64,000 bases of DNA from positions 1,550,001-1,614,000 of the forward strand of contig NZ_JACBYV010000001.1 of the NCBI RefSeq assembly GCF_013408425.1. The letters are read 5' to 3'. Under the pieces are notes generated by a model. The model saw only the letters and a list, made by a program, of their open reading frames with translations. It did not search any database and had not been told where the DNA came from. The stretch comes from Pseudomonas flavescens. GTDB taxonomy: Bacteria > Pseudomonadota > Gammaproteobacteria > Pseudomonadales > Pseudomonadaceae. A program made the translations under genes and the position numbers. Below, one piece after another: positions 22,079 through 31,110 of the stretch (its first letter is position 1; every line of letters begins with the position of its first letter).

Positions 22079-22543
22079 CTGGAAAATTCAGCCGCTCGGA
22101 CTGAGGTGGAGAAGATTCCCTTTTTGGAAGACGTCACAAACTGTGCCGCATGTGCTTCAGCTCTCGGCGTCGTAAATCTCGTGTTCGCATTTGTTTCCAA
22201 GCGCGCATTTAGATCCCGCGTCCGTTCATCCAGCGGTGGGAGCGCGTTCAGGCCCTGATAGGTGTACCGGCTCAGGGCTAATGAATGAAAGGAGCATCCG
22301 AGCCACCATGTGCCGGCTTAGATCGAGGTAGGAGGGCGGAAGCAGTCGCGTGGGCGTGTGGCGAAGACGACCGACGCACCATTCTAGATTACTTGTCAAA
22401 AGCCGAAGGAAGCCTATGCTAAGGAAGGCCATTCGCCATCATGCGACTGACCATAGCAAGGCTGTCGTTCCCAGTGCCTTGCTCACCGAATTTTGAACCA
22501 GCTGTGGCTTGAAATGGCCACTGTCTCAACACGGAAGCGAGAC
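22079..22543. other. gene-free stretch before the RloC-like gene
   Basis: No supported coding region is seen in these 465 bases on either strand. Composition is mixed and no clear promoter was found. It may contain eroded sequence from an earlier insertion. Confidence 0.5.
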
Positions 22544-24931
22544 ATGATTGAGTCGATTTCCTTGCGCGATATTGCAACTTACGGCCCCACAAAGCCCGAA
22601 ACTCTCTCGAACTTAAAGGCAATTAATTATTTCTACGGGGCCAACGGCGCGGGGAAGACAACCGTCAGTCGTTTGATATTAAACCCGCAAATTTCTTCTA
22701 CCTCCCAAGTGATTTGGTCGAAGAACAATCCAATACCAGCGCATGTGTATAACAACGATTTCATTACCACTAACTTCACTGATTCCAAGCAATTTAAAGG
22801 GGTGTTTACCCTAGGCCAGGCTCAGCAGGCGCAGCTTGATCGCCTAGATGAACTTCAGAAAGAAAGGGTTCGTCATGATCAATTCAGAAACAAGTCGCTA
22901 GAGGCGCTCGGCGGTGTAGATGGCAATGGTGGTAAGAATGCTGAGAAAAATACTCTGGAAGCGAAACTGGTCGCAAAGTGCTGGGAGCAAAAAGTAAAGC
23001 ACGATGCAGACTTTCAGGATGCTTTCGTTGGCGTAAGGAACAACAGGGAAAGCTTCAAAAACCGAGTCCTGCTTGAAAAGAAAAACAACACCTCTACTCT
23101 GGTTGACCTGGAGAGTCTAAAGAAAAAAGCGAAGGTTGTTTATGGGGAGGCTCCCTCACCAATGAGTGGGGTTGCTAGTCTTGATCTGTCCCGCTTAATA
23201 GCCTATGAGCAAGATCCTTCTTTAACCAAGAAGATAGTGGGTAAGGAGGATGTAAATATATCAGCGATGATCCAATCTTTGGGCAGTAGTGATTGGGTTC
23301 GCCAAGGCATGAAATTCCTTGAGCACACCGATGATGATTGTCCTTTTTGCCAACAAAAGTTGCCTCATGACTTCGAGAAGAATCTCGAAGATTATTTTGA
23401 TGCAACCTTTGAGTTAGATACAAAAGCGCTGTCGCAATATTGCGAAAACTATAATGCGGCTGCAGATTCAATCTTAAGTCAGGCCAATAGTATTATAGCT
23501 GCTGCATGCGCTCATCTTGATAAAGAAAAACTCGATCTTGAGTTTCAGACTTTAAATTCAATAATTCAAGTTAATAGGCAACGCTTGGAGAACAAGCTCG
23601 CTCGCCCTAGCTCAGCTATAGAGCTTGAAACGGTTTCAAGTATTCAGGCAGGCATTACTGGCTTGATTGAGGCAGCAAATGCCAAGGTGGCTGAACATAA
23701 TAAGTTAGTGGCAGGGTTGACGGTCGAGCAGAAAAAATTGGCAGCTGAGGTTTGGAAATATCTTGTCGAGGTGGAGCTAAAAGACACACTCGCCGACTAT
23801 GAAAAGGAGGCCAATGGTCTCGATAAAGCCATAGCGGGAATTAATACGAGCCTAGGGAAAGCAAATTTGGACATTACAGCTGCAGAGGTTGAAATTTCTG
23901 AGATTGAAAAGTCCCTTACGAGTGTAAAACCTACCGTCAACGCAATTAATAAAATCCTCAGGGACTTCGGGTTTAGGGGCTTCTCCCTTGATCCTGCTTG
24001 CGAAAATAATGCGTATCGACTTATTAGAGGTAATGGAAGTGATGCTAAGGCCACGCTTAGCGAAGGCGAAAAGACGTTTGTTACATTTCTCTATTTCTAT
24101 CACCTGCTCAAGGGCAGCATAACCACTTCTGGAATAAGCAGTGATCGTATAGTGGTCATTGATGACCCGGTGTCGAGTTTAGATAGCGATGTGCTTTTTA
24201 TCGTCAGCAGTCTGATTAAGCAACTGTTCCATGAGGTGCGTGAGAAAGGCAGCAATCTGAAACAGATTTTTGTGCTGACGCATAACGTCCACTTTCACAA
24301 GGAAATAACCTTTCATCCAGAGCGTAAAGCGGACAAGGCCCGACCTGAGGAGACGTTCTGGATCATTCGCAAGCCTGCTGATTACTCCCTCGTAGAGTCT
24401 CATGTCATAAACCCGATAAGGACATCTTACCAGCTGCTATGGACTGAGTTAACTAAAGCACCCGTTTCTGCGCTGACCATTCAGAATACAATGCGCAGAA
24501 TTCTGGAGAATTATTTTAAAATTCTGGGCGGAATCAACACTCAGAAGTTGATTGAGAAATTCCAGGGGCATGAAAAAACGCAATGCCAGTCTCTGATTAG
24601 TTGGGTCAACGATGGATCTCATTATTCACCTGATGAGCTCTATGTGGCGATTGGGGACACCATGGCGTCCAGCTACATGAGGATCTTCTACAAGGTGTTT
24701 AGGGAGATGGGCCACATGGATCATTATCGAATGATGATGGGGGATCACTTTGTCGACCTGGATCCCGAAGAGCCGCCTGCGGATCAAGAGGATGGAAATG
24801 CCACATTGGGGCCGCCTCTGGGAGTTGTTGTCGTATCTGGTTCCGTTGGCGAAGTAGGCGCAGCTCCGGTCGTTGCAAGTCCACCACCACCAATTCTGAC
24901 TTGGGCGCTGCAAGAGCTGCCTGAGGACTAG
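22544..24931 (+). CDS. RloC-like AAA/ABC ATPase with predicted anticodon nuclease domain
   Basis: This 795-residue protein has a split ABC ATPase: Walker A GANGAGKT at 32-39, signature LSEGEK at 505-510, Walker B with Asp540-Asp541 and DDPVSSLDSD, and LTHNVHF. Between the halves is a long coiled coil bearing CPFC (Cys266, Cys269), a Rad50-like zinc hook. The C-terminus has RRILE and NDGSH, giving Arg651, Glu655 and His693. That spacing is close to the R/E/H catalytic triad of the tRNA anticodon nuclease PrrC, and the whole layout is that of RloC, which excises the wobble nucleotide of tRNA on DNA damage. The last 80 residues are a proline/glycine-rich tail. ATG 22544 follows GGAAG. AT-rich composition indicates transfer; no restriction-modification genes are adjacent. 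Confidence 0.85.
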   Translation: MIESISLRDIATYGPTKPETLSNLKAINYFYGANGAGKTTVSRLILNPQISSTSQVIWSKNNPIPAHVYNNDFITTNFTDSKQFKGVFTLGQAQQAQLDRLDELQKERVRHDQFRNKSLEALGGVDGNGGKNAEKNTLEAKLVAKCWEQKVKHDADFQDAFVGVRNNRESFKNRVLLEKKNNTSTLVDLESLKKKAKVVYGEAPSPMSGVASLDLSRLIAYEQDPSLTKKIVGKEDVNISAMIQSLGSSDWVRQGMKFLEHTDDDCPFCQQKLPHDFEKNLEDYFDATFELDTKALSQYCENYNAAADSILSQANSIIAAACAHLDKEKLDLEFQTLNSIIQVNRQRLENKLARPSSAIELETVSSIQAGITGLIEAANAKVAEHNKLVAGLTVEQKKLAAEVWKYLVEVELKDTLADYEKEANGLDKAIAGINTSLGKANLDITAAEVEISEIEKSLTSVKPTVNAINKILRDFGFRGFSLDPACENNAYRLIRGNGSDAKATLSEGEKTFVTFLYFYHLLKGSITTSGISSDRIVVIDDPVSSLDSDVLFIVSSLIKQLFHEVREKGSNLKQIFVLTHNVHFHKEITFHPERKADKARPEETFWIIRKPADYSLVESHVINPIRTSYQLLWTELTKAPVSALTIQNTMRRILENYFKILGGINTQKLIEKFQGHEKTQCQSLISWVNDGSHYSPDELYVAIGDTMASSYMRIFYKVFREMGHMDHYRMMMGDHFVDLDPEEPPADQEDGNATLGPPLGVVVVSGSVGEVGAAPVVASPPPPILTWALQELPED

Positions 24932-25394
24932 AAGTACCAACTACCTATGCCCATATTCGCTGGGGAGATACGTCCTGTCGATGCTTGAGAATGCTGTAGC
25001 GTCCATTCGTCTTGGGGTTGAGGATTATCAGGCTGCTGCCCAAGACGATGCTCGGGCCCAGCATCTGATGCATGGTCTCAGATAGCATGATATCCAATTG
25101 AACAAGTGGGCGATGTCAGATGTTCGTAAGCAGCTCATAAGCCCGCTGCATTTGGCTTAATAAGCTAAAAGTGAACGCACTTGTTCATCATTCAGGGAGT
25201 CGGATTGCGGGCTTGCCATCACAAAATTCCTCTCCGTAGATGGCTGGGAACCCTACAGGATTTCAATTTTCGAAGGGCGCCGATTGGCTTTCTTGGGATT
25301 TTGTAAAGTCCTTAATACTAATGGGATGGTTACTATATACTGTGATATGAACGATGGGCTTAGTTAGCCCCTAAAATACGCAGGCAACTCTACT
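24932..25394. other. AT-rich intergenic stretch with a gene remnant
   Basis: Apart from the broken frame at 24981-25160, this 463-base stretch has no gene. The right half (25260-25380) is strongly AT-rich. It separates two convergent genes. Confidence 0.55.
24981..25160 (+). pseudogene. remnant of a small conserved gene, interrupted by TAG
   Basis: From the ATG at 24981 the frame reads MLENAVASIRLGVEDYQ, stops at a TAG (25083-25085) and continues open to a TAA at 25160. The opening LENAxxSIxLGVEDY resembles the start of a family of longer uncharacterised bacterial proteins as I recall them, here cut short. It is probably debris from island rearrangement. The family match is from memory and unconfirmed. 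Confidence 0.35.
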
Positions 25395-26810
25395 TCACAT
25401 AGGTATCTGCCACCCAGACTTCACCCATCGGAACTTTGGTTCTTGAACCTTCGGCCCGCCGAAGTCTTCACCTTCAATCTTGAAGCACCTGGCCATCAGA
25501 TCCCGCACCCCCCCCAAGCGTTCCATGGCAGTGAGTTCCTTGGTGATGTCCTTGACAACCGTTGTAAACGCCTTAGTCGACTCTGACTTCATGAACTCGG
25601 GAGTGGAGAGAGCGAAATCCCGGTCGGGTAACGACACCCCAAATAGACTAGTAACAGAGCTTGCCGCCTTGATTAGAAAGCTGCCCTGGATACCTTGGGC
25701 AGACCTGAGACCGTAGCTGCGTTTAAGGTCGCCGCAAATCTTGTCGACATCATCCATGAGCTTGTTGATGCGCTTGTTTCCACTCGCGAGCCCTTGCTCG
25801 TCGAAGGCAACTCGAATGGCCTTTAGGGTTTCACGCATCGTTACGAAATGGTCTTCGCTGCGGATCTGTCGAGCTGCCTCGATCGCACCGGAAACGCTTC
25901 CGGCGGATTGAGTCAGCCATGCCGAGAACAAGGGCAGGTCCAAAGCGACGGTCTGAGTTGCTCCGTGCGACTGGATTTCCGAAATGCTCGTACTGGTTTT
26001 GTCCGAGAGGTTTGCCAAGAGGCGGGCGGTGAAGTCATGGCCGAAGGCGCCGGCTTTCTTCATCCAGTGCACTTGATAGGCATGCCTGATGGGATGAATG
26101 AATGAGTCTGCTTTCAGGTGTTTGGCTGCAGTCGTGTAATAAATTGATTTGTACGCGAGCCAGTTCAGCGAGGCGACGAACATCTCCAGTTGCTTGGTGG
26201 GACCTCCGTAGGCGCCAGGATACTCTCCAGTGAACTCTGACTTGCTGAATTCGTGGCCATCCGAACCCACTAGCTTGACATCTTTCGACCAACGTCCGCG
26301 CGTTTCACTTGCATCGCTTAACTCTGCGAAGATTGCTGCGCTTAGGGCACTGTATTTGCCATAGTCGTCGGACGCACGGTAGCCCAGCATCCTCATGGTT
26401 AGGTAATACACACTGGAGGCTTGATCCCAGGTGCAGACCATGTTCATTTTCAGTTGCTCCAAAAGGGCACTAAAGTCCTCATCCACGAACTCGCCGCCGC
26501 GAATTTCAGGGCGAATCAGCGATGCTTCTTTTTGAGCGATCGTATCAACCCCGTCCAGCCCGAACTCGGTAGGCGACAAGAACCTGAGATAGGGGAATTG
26601 TTGCTTGCGGCTTTCTCTGTGATCTGCTTTGTAGTTGTCTATGCAGAGGAGGTCGTCGTAAAAGAGGTTGCCTTGCAGGAAATTCTCTAACGCGCACAGG
26701 TCTCCATTGATCGTATCGCTGGTCTTGACCGCCACCGCGCCGGTGGCGCGCTGGACGGCAGTGAGGGTGGCGTTGTCTATCAGTGCGTAGGTCATGTATT
26801 CATTGCCCAT
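25395..26810 (-). CDS. unknown protein, island gene (471 aa)
   Basis: No known domain, signal peptide or membrane helix is recognisable. The protein is mixed alpha/beta at the N-terminus (LCALENFLQGNLFYDDLLCIDNY). The centre is helical (IHPIRHAYQVHWMKK, SGAIEAARQIRSEDHF). The C-terminal half has regularly spaced charged helices (IRVAFDEQGLASGNKRINKLMDDVDKI). It starts at 26810 or at the nearby methionine six codons on; neither has a clear ribosome site. It is convergent with the RloC-like gene and lies between it and the dif site, so a role in host defence is possible by position only. GC content is below that of the core genes. Confidence 0.75.
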   Translation of the reverse strand: MGNEYMTYALIDNATLTAVQRATGAVAVKTSDTINGDLCALENFLQGNLFYDDLLCIDNYKADHRESRKQQFPYLRFLSPTEFGLDGVDTIAQKEASLIRPEIRGGEFVDEDFSALLEQLKMNMVCTWDQASSVYYLTMRMLGYRASDDYGKYSALSAAIFAELSDASETRGRWSKDVKLVGSDGHEFSKSEFTGEYPGAYGGPTKQLEMFVASLNWLAYKSIYYTTAAKHLKADSFIHPIRHAYQVHWMKKAGAFGHDFTARLLANLSDKTSTSISEIQSHGATQTVALDLPLFSAWLTQSAGSVSGAIEAARQIRSEDHFVTMRETLKAIRVAFDEQGLASGNKRINKLMDDVDKICGDLKRSYGLRSAQGIQGSFLIKAASSVTSLFGVSLPDRDFALSTPEFMKSESTKAFTTVVKDITKELTAMERLGGVRDLMARCFKIEGEDFGGPKVQEPKFRWVKSGWQIPM

Positions 26811-27403
26811 CCTAGTGTGGCTGAGACTATAACCACTGAAATTGGATGGTGGCTATATTCGACGGGCAGTCTTTGCGAACCATGAAGCATGGTATTGGCG
26901 CAGGTGAAGCGCCTTATTCGACTGCACGCTCATTGGCGCAGTGTAGTGGTCAACTGATACGGGACACGATATTAAGTCTTTTTCGGACTGAGCTGTTGGC
27001 AGTGCTGCTGAAAAATGACTCTCGGTGAGTCGAGAGCACTGGAAAGACGTCCTGGGAAATATCGAGTCTCTCGAGCAGATCGGTGAAAGCCTAGTCTAGA
27101 TAGCGGAGTCCATCTGTTTCATCAACTGTGAGTGCATTGCTTTCCTGCAACAAGGCGCGTGGTGTGAGCCGTGTGATGTCGACGCCGAAAACGAATTCGT
27201 TGAATCAAGGCCTAAGATAGCTCATGAAAATTTATGGTATGGCCTGTCGTTTAACATAATATACATTATGCGAACCTAAGGTTTCGCACATCAGAGGCTC
27301 TCATCACCAGATTTGGCCTTTCCTCAGTCCAGCGTCAGTGACGACAACGACTGCTGATCGTTGACTGGGACCTTGCTGATGATGAGCCGCTACGTCAGTT
27401 CGT
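26811..27403. other. gene-free AT-rich region containing dif
   Basis: No supported gene lies in these 593 bases. Contents are the dif site at 27249-27276 and a segment at 26942-26967 (TGTAGTGGTCAACTGATACG...) that resembles the end of an IS3-family element but has no partner end or transposase. A small hairpin sits near 27018-27036. A 60-codon frame at 26846 has no coding character. Confidence 0.6.
27249..27276 (-). other. dif site for XerCD chromosome dimer resolution
   Basis: Read on the reverse strand, the 28 bases consist of a XerC arm GGTTCGCATAA, the central region TGTATA and a XerD arm TTATGTTAAAC. Compared with E. coli dif as I recall it (GGTGCGCATAA, TGTATA, TTATGTTAAAT) only two positions differ. 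XerC and XerD recombine here to separate dimeric chromosomes when FtsK brings the sites to the septum. This marks the replication terminus. It lies between the accessory island and the gluconate genes, in a gene-free gap. Confidence 0.93.
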
Positions 27404-27840: not shown

Positions 27841-29217
27841 CTACAGGATCAGGCTACCGATCACGGCCAGCAGGAATGCGATGCTGCCCAGCAGGGTTTC
27901 CATCACTGTCCAGGTCTTGAGGGTGGTTTTCTCGTCCATTTCCAGAAAACGGCTGACCAGCCAGAACCCCGAGTCGTTGACGTGTGAGAGCACCGTGGCA
28001 CCGCCGGCAATCGCCACCACGATGAAGCACAGGTCGAACTCGCTGAGCCCCGGTGTAGCCGCGACCATGGGCGCTACCAACGCCGCTGTGGTGGTCAGCG
28101 CGACGGTAGCCGAACCTTGAGCCACACGCAGTGCTGCGGAGATCACGAAGGCTGCAAGGATCACCGGCATGCCGGTATCCGACAGCGTATCGGCCAGGGC
28201 ATCGCCGATACCGCTGGTACGCAGCACGCCACCGAACATGCCCCCTGCCCCTGTCACCAGGATGATCGAGCAGATCGGCCCTAGCGCACCCTCACAGACT
28301 TTTTCCAGGTGCTTGCTGGTGTGTCGGCCACTGAAGGCGATCAGCGCGAAAAGTACGGTGATCAGCAACGCCACCGGCGTTTTGCCGATCATGCGCAGGA
28401 ACTGCACCCAGGTGCTGTTGCCGTCGACCGTTCCCATTACGCTGAGGGTGTTGAGACCGGTGTCCAGGAAGATCAGCACCAGCGGCATCAGCAGGATGGT
28501 CAGCACCAGCCCGAAGCGCGGCGGCGCTACGCTGTTGTCACGCTCGACATCGGTAAGGAAGCTCGCTGGCAGCTTGAGATTGAAGCGTTTGCCTGCCCAG
28601 AGACCGAACAGATAGCCACCGAAGTACCAGGTCGGCAAGGCGATCAGGGTGCCGATGATGACCAGCAAACCGATGTTCGCGCCCAGCAGTTCAGCTGCCG
28701 CGACCGGGCCCGGGTGCGGCGGCACCAGAGCATGCATGGCTGCGAAGGCACCTGCGGCCGGCAAGGCGTACGTCAGCGTCGAACCGCCGAAGCGCTTGGC
28801 GACGCTGAAGATGATCGGCAGCATGACGATCAGGCCGGCGTCGAAGAAGATCGGGAAGCCGAACAGCAGCGACGCCACACCCAGAGCGAACGGTGCCCGG
28901 TGCTCACCGAACTTGTTGATCAGGGTATCTGCCAGCACTTGAGCGCCGCCGGTTATCTCCAGCAGTCGGCCGATCATGGCACCAAGGCCGACCAGCAAGG
29001 CCACGGCCGCCAGTGTTGTACCGAAGCCGCCCAGTAGTGTCGGGACGATCTTGTCGAAGGGAATCTGCGTGGCCAGTGCGGTGAAAATGCTCACCACCAC
29101 GAGTGCCAGAAAGGCATGCAGACGGAAGCGGATGATCATCAGCAGCAGTAGAAGCACTGCGCCTGCCGCGATGGAGAGAAGCGCCCCTGCGCCGAGAGTC
29201 GTGGTCACCTCATTCAT
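27841..29217 (-). CDS. gntP: gluconate:H+ symporter, GntP family
   Basis: This 458-residue inner-membrane carrier has about twelve hydrophobic helices and the GntP-family pattern (GFGTTLAAVALLVGLGAMIGRLLE, FGFPIFFDAGLIVMLPI, ALVPPHPGPVAAAELLGANIG). It imports gluconate for the kinase encoded beside it. GAGGAGG nine bases before the ATG at 29217 sets the start; the frame to 29238 is less likely. It is read in the same direction as gntK after a 157-base gap. Confidence 0.92.
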   Translation of the reverse strand: MNEVTTTLGAGALLSIAAGAVLLLLLMIIRFRLHAFLALVVVSIFTALATQIPFDKIVPTLLGGFGTTLAAVALLVGLGAMIGRLLEITGGAQVLADTLINKFGEHRAPFALGVASLLFGFPIFFDAGLIVMLPIIFSVAKRFGGSTLTYALPAAGAFAAMHALVPPHPGPVAAAELLGANIGLLVIIGTLIALPTWYFGGYLFGLWAGKRFNLKLPASFLTDVERDNSVAPPRFGLVLTILLMPLVLIFLDTGLNTLSVMGTVDGNSTWVQFLRMIGKTPVALLITVLFALIAFSGRHTSKHLEKVCEGALGPICSIILVTGAGGMFGGVLRTSGIGDALADTLSDTGMPVILAAFVISAALRVAQGSATVALTTTAALVAPMVAATPGLSEFDLCFIVVAIAGGATVLSHVNDSGFWLVSRFLEMDEKTTLKTWTVMETLLGSIAFLLAVIGSLIL

Positions 29218-29374
29218 GATGAGCGCCCTCCTCTGCAACTGCAGCTACTCGGCAAGACCGAGCACGATCATCTTTCAGGGACAGGTAACGGTGAGCTTGA
29301 TGGATGGTTTTCATATCGTCTCCACTTGTCTTTGTTATGGGAGAAGCGTGGTTGTGTCGCGTTATCTGCGGGTG

Positions 29375-29893
29375 TTATCGACCGAACGCGCGCCACCAGT
29401 CAGCGGCCTGCTGGCCGAGCGTATCGATGGATTGCGTCGCATCGAGGGTCAGTGTCGCGTGCTCGCCGTGTGGCGGTTCTAGGGTCGCGAACTGGCTGTC
29501 GATGAGGCTTGCTGGCATGAAGTGACCCGGGCGATCACCCACACGCCTGGCGGCTTCTTCGCGGGTCAGTTCGAGAAACACGAAGCCCAGACCAGGCACG
29601 GCTTCGCGCAACCGGTCACGGTACTTGCGCTTGAGGGAGGAACAGGCCAGTAGCGGCCGATCATGGGTTTCGAGGGCGCTGGCCAGCTCCTCACCCAGAC
29701 GGGTCAGCCAGTCGGCACGGTCCTCATCGGTAAGAGGAATGCCGGCGCTCATCTTCTCGATGTTGGCGGCAGGGTGAAACTGGTCACCTTCGATCAGGTA
29801 ACCGCCGATCTTTTCGGCGATCGATTCTCCGACGCAGCTCTTGCCGCAACCGGATACGCCCATGACGACCAGGGCGGTTATTGGGTTATTCAT
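29375..29893 (-). CDS. gntK: gluconokinase
   Basis: This 172-residue P-loop kinase makes 6-phosphogluconate from gluconate and ATP, feeding the Entner-Doudoroff pathway. The Walker A loop is MGVSGCGKS near residue 12. Family patches EGDQFHPAANIEKMSAGIPLTDEDRADWL and ACSSLKRKYRDRLR are present. GGAG precedes ATG 29893; the frame to 29947 would run into the operator. It is divergent from gntR across two GntR-type operators. Confidence 0.95.
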   Translation of the reverse strand: MNNPITALVVMGVSGCGKSCVGESIAEKIGGYLIEGDQFHPAANIEKMSAGIPLTDEDRADWLTRLGEELASALETHDRPLLACSSLKRKYRDRLREAVPGLGFVFLELTREEAARRVGDRPGHFMPASLIDSQFATLEPPHGEHATLTLDATQSIDTLGQQAADWWRAFGR

Positions 29894-29910
29894 CGTGCAA
29901 CTCCAGCGGA

Positions 29911-29925
29911 AGACAGCGCTATCTT
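29911..29925. promoter_or_regulatory. candidate GntR operator 1
   Basis: AGACAGCGCTATCTT lies 18 bases upstream of gntK. Its complement contains AAG-A-TAGCGCT, matching the GntR operator core reported for Pseudomonas as I recall it (AAG-N-TAGCGCT). Binding here would block gntK transcription. Confidence 0.65.
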
Positions 29926-30035
29926 TGAAGATCGTGAACATCTGCAAGACGGCGGCTTCGAATGTTGTAAGTGTTGTTCGCCAGGTACTGCTGCTCGGGG
30001 CCAGTTACGCAATGCACGACATTGCCAAGCCTTCG

Positions 30036-30084: not shown

Positions 30085-31110
30085 ATGAAATCTCCGACGC
30101 ACAGCAGTTCCCGTACCCTGGGCATGCCCACGCTTGCAGAGGTCGCCGAGCGTGCAGGCGTTTCCACCATCACTGCGTCCCGTGCATTGCGCGGCGTGGC
30201 CACGGTAGGTGCTGATCTGGCTGAGCGCGTGCGCAAGGCGGCCGACGAGTTGGGCTACGTGGCGAATCCTGCTGCACGCACCCTGGCATCGGCGCGCAGT
30301 ACATCCGTGGTGGTGCTCATCCCTTCCCTGTCCAACCAGTTGTTCATCGAACCTCTGGATGCGATTCACGAGGTGATGCGTCCGCGCGGTATCGAGGTGC
30401 TGATTGGCGATTACCACTATTCTCGCGATGAGGAAGAACGGCTGGTTCGCAACTACCTGCCGTATCGGCCGATGGGCATGCTGCTGACCGGCTTCGACCG
30501 TACCGAAGGCACGCGGCATCTGCTCAGCGCCAGCCGTATTCCCTGCGTGCACATGATGGAATTGAGCAGCGCGCCCGGTATCGCCAGCGTCGGGTTCTCT
30601 CAGCAGGCAGCTGGTGAAGCCGTGGCGCAACACCTGCTGCAGCAGGGGCGCAAGCGTCTCGCCTACATCGCCGCCCAGCTGGACCCGCGGGTGATGCAAC
30701 GTGGTGAGGGGTTTCGGCGCACCCTGCAGGCGGCCGGCGTGTATGACCCGGCGCTGGAACTGCTGCACCCCCTGCCCTCATCCATCGGTTTGGGTGGCCA
30801 GCTGTTCAATGAGCTGATGCAGCGCCACCCGGATATCGATGGCATCTTCTTCTGCAATGACGACCTTGCTCAGGGCGCACTGTTCGAGGCGCAGCGCCGT
30901 GGTATCGCGGTTCCAGGGCGTGTGGCATTGGTGGGTTTCAACGACCTGCCGGCTTCCGCGCATACCGTGCCAAGGCTGTCGTCGATCCACACGCCGCGCA
31001 CCGAGGTCGGCCGTGAAGCCGCCAACCTATTGCTGAAAATGCTCGATGGCCGCCCTGCTGCGTCAAGCGTCGATCTCGGCTTCGAGCTGCGGGTGCGTGA
31101 AAGCAGCTAG
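30085..31110 (+). CDS. gntR: LacI-family repressor of gluconate genes
   Basis: This 341-residue regulator has a LacI helix-turn-helix at about 14-60 (PTLAEVAERAGVSTITASRALRG) and a periplasmic-binding-like effector domain (VVVLIPSLSNQLFIEPLDAI, FFCNDDLAQGALFEAQRRG, VGFNDLPAS). In Pseudomonas, GntR is released from DNA by gluconate or 6-phosphogluconate. Its position opposite gntK, with two matching operators between, supports the name. A terminator follows it. Confidence 0.93.
   Translation: MKSPTHSSSRTLGMPTLAEVAERAGVSTITASRALRGVATVGADLAERVRKAADELGYVANPAARTLASARSTSVVVLIPSLSNQLFIEPLDAIHEVMRPRGIEVLIGDYHYSRDEEERLVRNYLPYRPMGMLLTGFDRTEGTRHLLSASRIPCVHMMELSSAPGIASVGFSQQAAGEAVAQHLLQQGRKRLAYIAAQLDPRVMQRGEGFRRTLQAAGVYDPALELLHPLPSSIGLGGQLFNELMQRHPDIDGIFFCNDDLAQGALFEAQRRGIAVPGRVALVGFNDLPASAHTVPRLSSIHTPRTEVGREAANLLLKMLDGRPAASSVDLGFELRVRESS

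Follow-up and report, generated by a model that had tools for sequence, protein, structure and literature searches.

The window considered here, that is, the whole stretch of 64,000 nucleotides that was analyzed, comes from the chromosome of Pseudomonas flavescens (contig NZ_JACBYV010000001.1, positions 1,550,001 to 1,614,000) and carries a dif site on its minus strand at 27249..27276, with the XerC arm at 27276-27266, a 6-bp spacer and the XerD arm at 27259-27249. XerC and XerD, together with FtsK, resolve chromosome dimers at dif. The minus-strand 28-mer, GGTTCGCATAATGTATATTATGTTAAAC, was recognized in the initial annotation by its XerC arm, spacer and XerD arm and by having only two differences from E. 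coli dif. These fall at positions 4 and 28, and the resemblance is far beyond chance level: against these two mismatches, the best site in each of 20 simulated windows that preserved dinucleotide steps had 10-12, and none of 100 shuffles gave a match to the 28-mer at three mismatches or fewer. Inside the window, the palindromic shadow of dif itself has 10 mismatches and the next other site 12. The proposed whole-genome search, run at up to three mismatches over the closed single-contig chromosome of 5,951,877 bp (the proposed limit of four mismatches being applied to the window), returned 27249-27276 as the sole match, in keeping with the expectation of one dif per chromosome. Two proteins encoded by the same genome exceed the NCBIfam cut-offs of the XerC and XerD models. 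For the comparison with a listed Pseudomonas site, also proposed at the outset, PMC2731167 gives the dif of P. aeruginosa PAO1, from which the window site differs at positions 2 and 28 only. Judged by its sequence, 27249-27276 is an ordinary chromosomal dif.

The site lies, as had been described, in a gene-free gap (no open reading frame of at least 90 amino acids across 26811-27403) that adjoins an accessory island, seen as a low-GC block directly to the left of the gap. On the XerC side, the first gene of a known family codes for a GntP-type permease (27841..29238, minus strand), beyond which lie the genes for a gluconokinase (29375-29947) and a LacI-type regulator (30085-31110). On the XerD side are found a 61-bp repeat (26942..27002, no strand assigned) that has several copies in other Pseudomonas genomes, a 471-aa open reading frame for a conserved hypothetical protein (25395..26810, minus strand) and, farther out, the gene (22493..24931, plus strand) of an AAA_13 ATPase of 812 aa that belongs to PDC-S06, a candidate defence family of PADLOC. 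This ATPase, which also shows weaker similarity to the LmuB and PrrC models, lies in the lowest-GC part of the window. In some genomes, the 61-bp repeat has an inverted counterpart at a distance of about 850 bp, which is the arrangement of an insertion sequence, and the copy at 26942-27002 is probably the solo end of such an insertion sequence.

The earlier placement of the window at the replication terminus is supported by the distances to dnaA, by GC skew, by motif polarity and by the single dif. With dnaA at 4,632,468 in a PF00308 search (the other match to this model, at 2,833,885, is weaker and lies in a 260-aa frame), the two dif-to-dnaA arms measure 3.06 and 2.90 Mb, or 51:49. Across 80 samples of 20 kb, GC skew changes sign near dif and near dnaA, the best split being given by the samples that start at 1,636,757 and 4,612,677 (sampling step, 74 kb), and the cumulative plot suggested in the initial annotation has its maximum within the 300 kb around dif at 1,581,994, 4.7 kb from the site. 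Within the same 300 kb, 52 of the 53 copies of GGGNAGGG, a KOPS-type motif, are directed at dif (23/23 on the plus strand to its left, 29/30 on the minus strand to its right), and the best polarity split falls between 1,568,169 and 1,578,243, some 10 kb within which dif lies. GC skew is reported to switch at dif in P. aeruginosa (PMC6199493) and motif polarity to be towards dif in P. syringae (PMC6053426). The window site thus resembles the XerCD/dif systems of E. coli and P. aeruginosa in its length of 28 bp, its 11-6-11 organization, its position opposite dnaA, the polarity switch, its single copy (at up to three mismatches) and the presence of both XerC and XerD in the genome; the only notable difference is the C at position 28.

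A dif match with at most three mismatches was found in 170 of 298 genus genomes, more distant sites in the remaining 128 being covered only where another search happened to reach them. G197 is the one genome with two such matches, the second of which lies on a 135-kb contig, perhaps a plasmid, and is a dif-like site with one spacer mismatch and an element-type left flank (L176). Seventy-eight distinct dif loci, chosen by up to two mismatches in the 19-bp core and including one from outside the genus (L143), were read together. Among them, the most variable positions of dif are the first bases and the last base, and many loci have a common sequence on the XerD side, whereas the XerC side is different and less shared. 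In the 41 loci, described below, that have dif upstream of a recombinase match, pairwise identity over 60 bp is 73.6% on the XerD side and 34.5% on the XerC side. The conserved XerD-side flank contains repeats of about 29 bp. Fifty of 77 sampled sites stay below 36/60 matching bases to this element-type flank, and a flank at or above that threshold accompanies 18 of 28 sites with C at dif position 28 and nine of 49 with T (Fisher p 1e-4, or 2e-5 to 5e-4 at thresholds of 30-40, with related species not being independent). The last base of the window core is likewise C, the base that is commoner beside element-type flanks, where both PAO1 and E. coli dif have T; the C was probably contributed by the insert.

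Two other kinds of genes recur beside dif. A second dif-adjacent protein family, whose members have up to 414 aa and go by the name integrase in records of Stutzerimonas and Pseudomonas, is present at 16/78 dif loci (e.g., L202, L205, L217, and L181), with 14 of its 17 open reading frames on the XerD side. A conserved open reading frame of 73-202 aa (some cut), found on the XerC side only and reading towards dif, occurs at 12/78 loci (L013, L130, L179, L181, L184, L187, L188, L191, L193, L197, L205, and L214) and is probably the ancestral neighbor of dif.

At some loci, the XerD-side flank runs for 115 bp into the ATG of a gene for a 422-aa tyrosine recombinase (PF00589 at 7e-15 in the L257 copy), which, at E 1e-30 or better, has a whole or partial match in 32 of 398 genus genomes; in G368 and G227, which are among these, identity is 28-29% only. 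Scanning named genomes yielded 75 loci, from which 49 were examined (L253-L302 minus L279, 48 labelled Pseudomonas and one Pantoea) and 25 left out (L303-L327, all but one distant, with up to 32% identity, and the L317 match spanning 19 residues only). A dif lies at most 300 bp upstream of the recombinase match at 41 of the 49 loci and not close upstream at the other eight. The distance is exactly 115 bp at 30 of the 41, with the gene being either whole or a remnant, and differs at the remaining 11, at some of them because the match begins inside the gene. At 15 of the 30 loci with the 115-bp spacing, the 422-aa frame is recovered to 95% or more in a single tblastn piece; at the others the gene is shorter or broken. 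Downstream lie genes for a 506-aa protein (PF00589 at 3e-7), for a protein of about 705 aa and for a small protein of about 132 aa. The 705-aa protein has no Pfam match, and its motifs TGQRGNE, HQPRHW, and YYQH fit a tyrosine recombinase. The element family has four lead genes, three for tyrosine recombinases (422 and 506 aa and, as predicted from its motifs, about 705 aa) and one for the protein of about 132 aa. In a set of 60 loci, 57 of which were matched by tblastn, one piece covers at least 95% of the 422-aa protein at 27/60, of the 506-aa protein at 20/60, of the 705-aa protein at 20/60 and of the 132-aa protein at 25/60, counts that allow for in-frame stops within the pieces and for at least three genomes being present twice (L249/L253, L252/L257, and L174/L293). 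Shortened copies are common, some with internal deletions (L273 and L286) and some keeping only the first codons of the recombinase gene (L296, L300, and L302). A phage origin of the element was rejected, the 422-aa protein having no match in 50,697 phage records.

The right end of the elements, derived from L253, L185, L296, and L300, consists of TTATGAACATCTGACATCGCCCACTT followed by GTTAAAT; among these same loci, L253, L296, and L300 match the motif with 0/33 mismatches. It closes with a second GTTAAAY, the 7-bp core of the outer XerD arm, after which the old flank follows. Counted from dif, the insert of L253 spans 9,671 bp and that of L296 5,985 bp. Tandem element copies are found in L265/L275, within one contig, and in L300, and in both L275 and L300 an inverted, diverged version of the left end and the core GTTAAA precede the left end. 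The DNA past the right core of L253 is the DNA that directly follows dif in G089 (94% over 66 bp, with identical spacing), and it also matches G149, at L217 (95% over 65 bp, with the spacing off by 2). In G002, a right end with two mismatches is joined to this L253/G089 flank 81.3 kb from dif. The same flank is therefore encountered in three states: empty (G089), with a 9.7-kb insert (L253) and with an 81-kb insert (G002). Of 99 genomes covered by the junction search, 68 gave matches, most of which lay elsewhere in the query; G062 has one more short match beside the junction (86% over 43 bp). A second whole dif at the far end was considered and rejected: none was found at up to four core mismatches in the fetched flanks of 50 loci, with the exception of L298, whose one dif is on the opposite strand, and what is present at the far end is the 7-bp core only. 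Thus, the far junction has in common with dif the outer GTTAAAY of the XerD arm and lacks the dif spacer and the XerC arm, which argues against XerCD exchange at the spacer. The bias towards C at position 28, taken with the T that follows the right core, would fit a strand exchange inside GTTAAA. The element ends, the GTTAAAY at both of them, the spacing of dif and first recombinase (most often 115 bp), the position of the inserts beside the XerD arm of an intact dif, and the empty and occupied states of a site can all be read from the DNA itself.

Against this background, the sequence next to dif in the window can be interpreted. The 7-bp attachment core GTTAAAC (27249..27255, minus strand) is the outer XerD arm of dif, and next to it stands the left end of a dif-targeting element (27178..27248, minus strand), with 54/71 bases equal to those of L130 and L131 when dif is left out and a BLAST identity of 83% over 99 bp when it is included. 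The left-end homology stops at 27178, so that the window lacks both the inner repeat and the gene of the recombinase. The right end is found at 25097..25190 on the same strand; its 33-bp terminal motif (25097-25129) has two mismatches, its terminus is a decayed core copy, GTTCAAT (25097-25103), and its homology to L300 and L296 extends over 93-108 bp. The two cores are 2,145 bp apart. In 79 control samples of the same genome (1.58 Mb), the best right-end match has 13/33 mismatches, compared with two in the window, and the best left-end match 11/36, compared with five at dif (the left-end scan of the window used a hand-composed motif, and 5/36 is the score against real flanks). Each end occurs once in its own genome (E 1 or better), and the window holds no other match at up to 11 mismatches to either end motif. 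Remnants of the recombinase trio were sought in the window and gave only matches with E of 0.5 or more, and the 422-aa recombinase has no match in the genome at 1e-30. On these comparisons, both ends of the element are in place, each with a core copy, and the recombinase operon is absent; the insert is a recombinase-free derivative of 2.15 kb that contains the gene of the 471-aa protein. This derivative accounts for part of the “accessory island” noted beside dif, and the 812-aa ATPase lies beyond its right end. On the far side of the right core, TGGATATCATGC (25085..25096, minus strand) looks, by eye, like the native dif flanks of other species and is the probable original XerD-side flank of dif; no empty-site relative for this right junction was found among the 298 genomes.

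The 471-aa frame is the one clear gene inside the derivative. Among 8000 scored candidates, 291 proteins match it at E 0.001 or better, while Pfam, NCBIfam, and PADLOC give no match. Eight other genus genomes have a close homolog, and the stretches retrieved around these homologs (4.4 kb for G413) show no element ends. The gene was for this reason rejected as a marker of the element, and its link to the element may be a chance capture.

Cargo was scanned in ten hand-picked proteins, from which no rate follows. A Tmn-like protein is encoded between the mapped ends of both L253 and L296, and a further protein of L253 resembles the Aga_REase model of PADLOC. Downstream of the operon, at loci where the right end was not reached, are PDC-M65A/B (L257), an LmuB-like protein (L258) and GajA with GajB (L266). 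Two of the ten proteins, one in L253 and one on a megaplasmid, had no match. Three P. aeruginosa megaplasmids of 495-501 kb code for the 422-aa protein at 83% identity; in the one examined, only an XerD half-site precedes the left end, and an IS30-type transposase gene interrupts the gene of the third recombinase. The P. flavescens genome itself contains, far from dif (G000:C1:1060318-1071815), three tyrosine recombinase matches within 12 kb, in frames of 357, 534, and 779 aa, perhaps another recombinase-trio island.

The arrangement recalls several known systems. Tn554 and the recombinase-in-trio elements (for tyrosine recombinase classes, see PMC8138268 and PMC8371274) share with the dif elements consecutive tyrosine recombinases, a small protein, a short core and a fixed target. 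The dif elements differ in their target, which is dif, and in the sizes of their recombinases (422, 506, and 705 aa). The first recombinase is also distantly similar to GmtY of the Gamma-mobile-trio (E 3.6e-8), scoring 33.1 bits against a cut-off of 340, which places it outside GmtY. The small protein of about 132 aa is distantly similar to VPA1267 (E 0.037), a protein linked to the Gamma-mobile-trio. IMEX (described in PMC5357621 and PMC9765430), among them the CTX phage, GGI, LME-1, and EludIMEX-1, likewise enter at dif, and a working dif remains on one side of them. They differ from the trio elements in that full trio copies encode three tyrosine recombinases of their own (the window derivative encodes none) and in that the trio elements have as their core the outer 7 bp of the XerD arm in place of the dif spacer. 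No recognizable paper on trio elements at dif was found in the literature, which is weak evidence of absence, many subscription papers being outside reach.

Three other readings of the locus were weighed. In the first, the conserved flank on the XerD side would serve dif as a host accessory sequence, comparable to those of plasmid Xer sites, and would not be the end of a mobile element. This might be suggested by its adjoining dif in many species and by its internal repeats. However, nearly two thirds of the sampled sites (the 50/77 given above) lack such a flank at the threshold used, the flank often leads directly to a recombinase gene, its inverted form terminates the far side of inserts, and two tandem junctions as well as the P. 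aeruginosa megaplasmid have it where no whole dif is present. This very unlikely reading was dropped in view of the adjoining recombinase gene, the tandem junctions and the inversion at the right end. The possibility that the elements are IMEX, carrying a dif mimic and integrated by the host XerC and XerD, is somewhat less remote and still unlikely: known elements do use dif in this way (PMC5357621; PMC9765430), and the window derivative has no recombinase of its own, but the full copies encode three, and a far junction without spacer or XerC arm does not indicate exchange at the dif spacer.

It would be harder still to believe that an ordinary dif stands here beside unrelated accessory DNA by chance and that the matches to element ends in the window are coincidental. 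Mobility genes do adjoin about a quarter of dif sites in a proteobacterial survey of 161 sites, 10.9% having phage proteins as neighbors and 14.2% having insertion sequences or genes for a transposase or an integrase (PMC2731167). Yet the window has two ends in the right orientation and place, the left one identical at 54/71 bases outside dif and the right one with two of 33 mismatches and homology over 93-108 bp, and nothing in the control samples comes closer to the right-end motif than 13 mismatches.

The reading that we prefer, with a probability of about 0.85, is that the site is the chromosomal dif, that its XerD arm doubles as the attachment site of Pseudomonas recombinase-trio elements and that the window carries a recombinase-free derivative of one of them. 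The dif of the window is itself ordinary, and the adjacent element is recognized only through comparison. In the proposed mechanism, the recombinases of the element would exchange strands within the GTTAAAY core; the left junction would re-form the XerD arm, so that the host could tolerate the insert; and new arrivals would insert beside dif, with older inserts being displaced outward. XerCD could also participate in integration. The elements apparently insert themselves at one arm of dif, leaving dif unbroken, and some carry likely anti-virus genes. It is also fairly probable, in a broader sense, that the dif of Pseudomonas is a landing pad for undescribed self-integrating islands that have their own recombinase trio, use a 7-bp core that rebuilds dif, stack outward and carry anti-phage genes (Tmn and, downstream, Gabija and candidate systems), and that small recombinase-free derivatives spread or persist by means of the same ends. 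The suggestion in the initial annotation that dif gives a reason for foreign DNA gathering beside it, offered there with no mechanism, was right in outline. The adjoining DNA has both ends of a family that uses the outer XerD arm as its core.

In the cited papers, dif elements borrow the Xer recombinases of their host. A family that brings its own recombinases and touches only the outer XerD arm would, if this is true, represent a different way to occupy a site that the chromosome must keep. The borders of islands at the Pseudomonas terminus can be found from dif on one side and the 33-bp right-end motif on the other, and the trio family would help to explain the recurrence of foreign and defence DNA at this terminus as well as the varied flanks and last base of dif.
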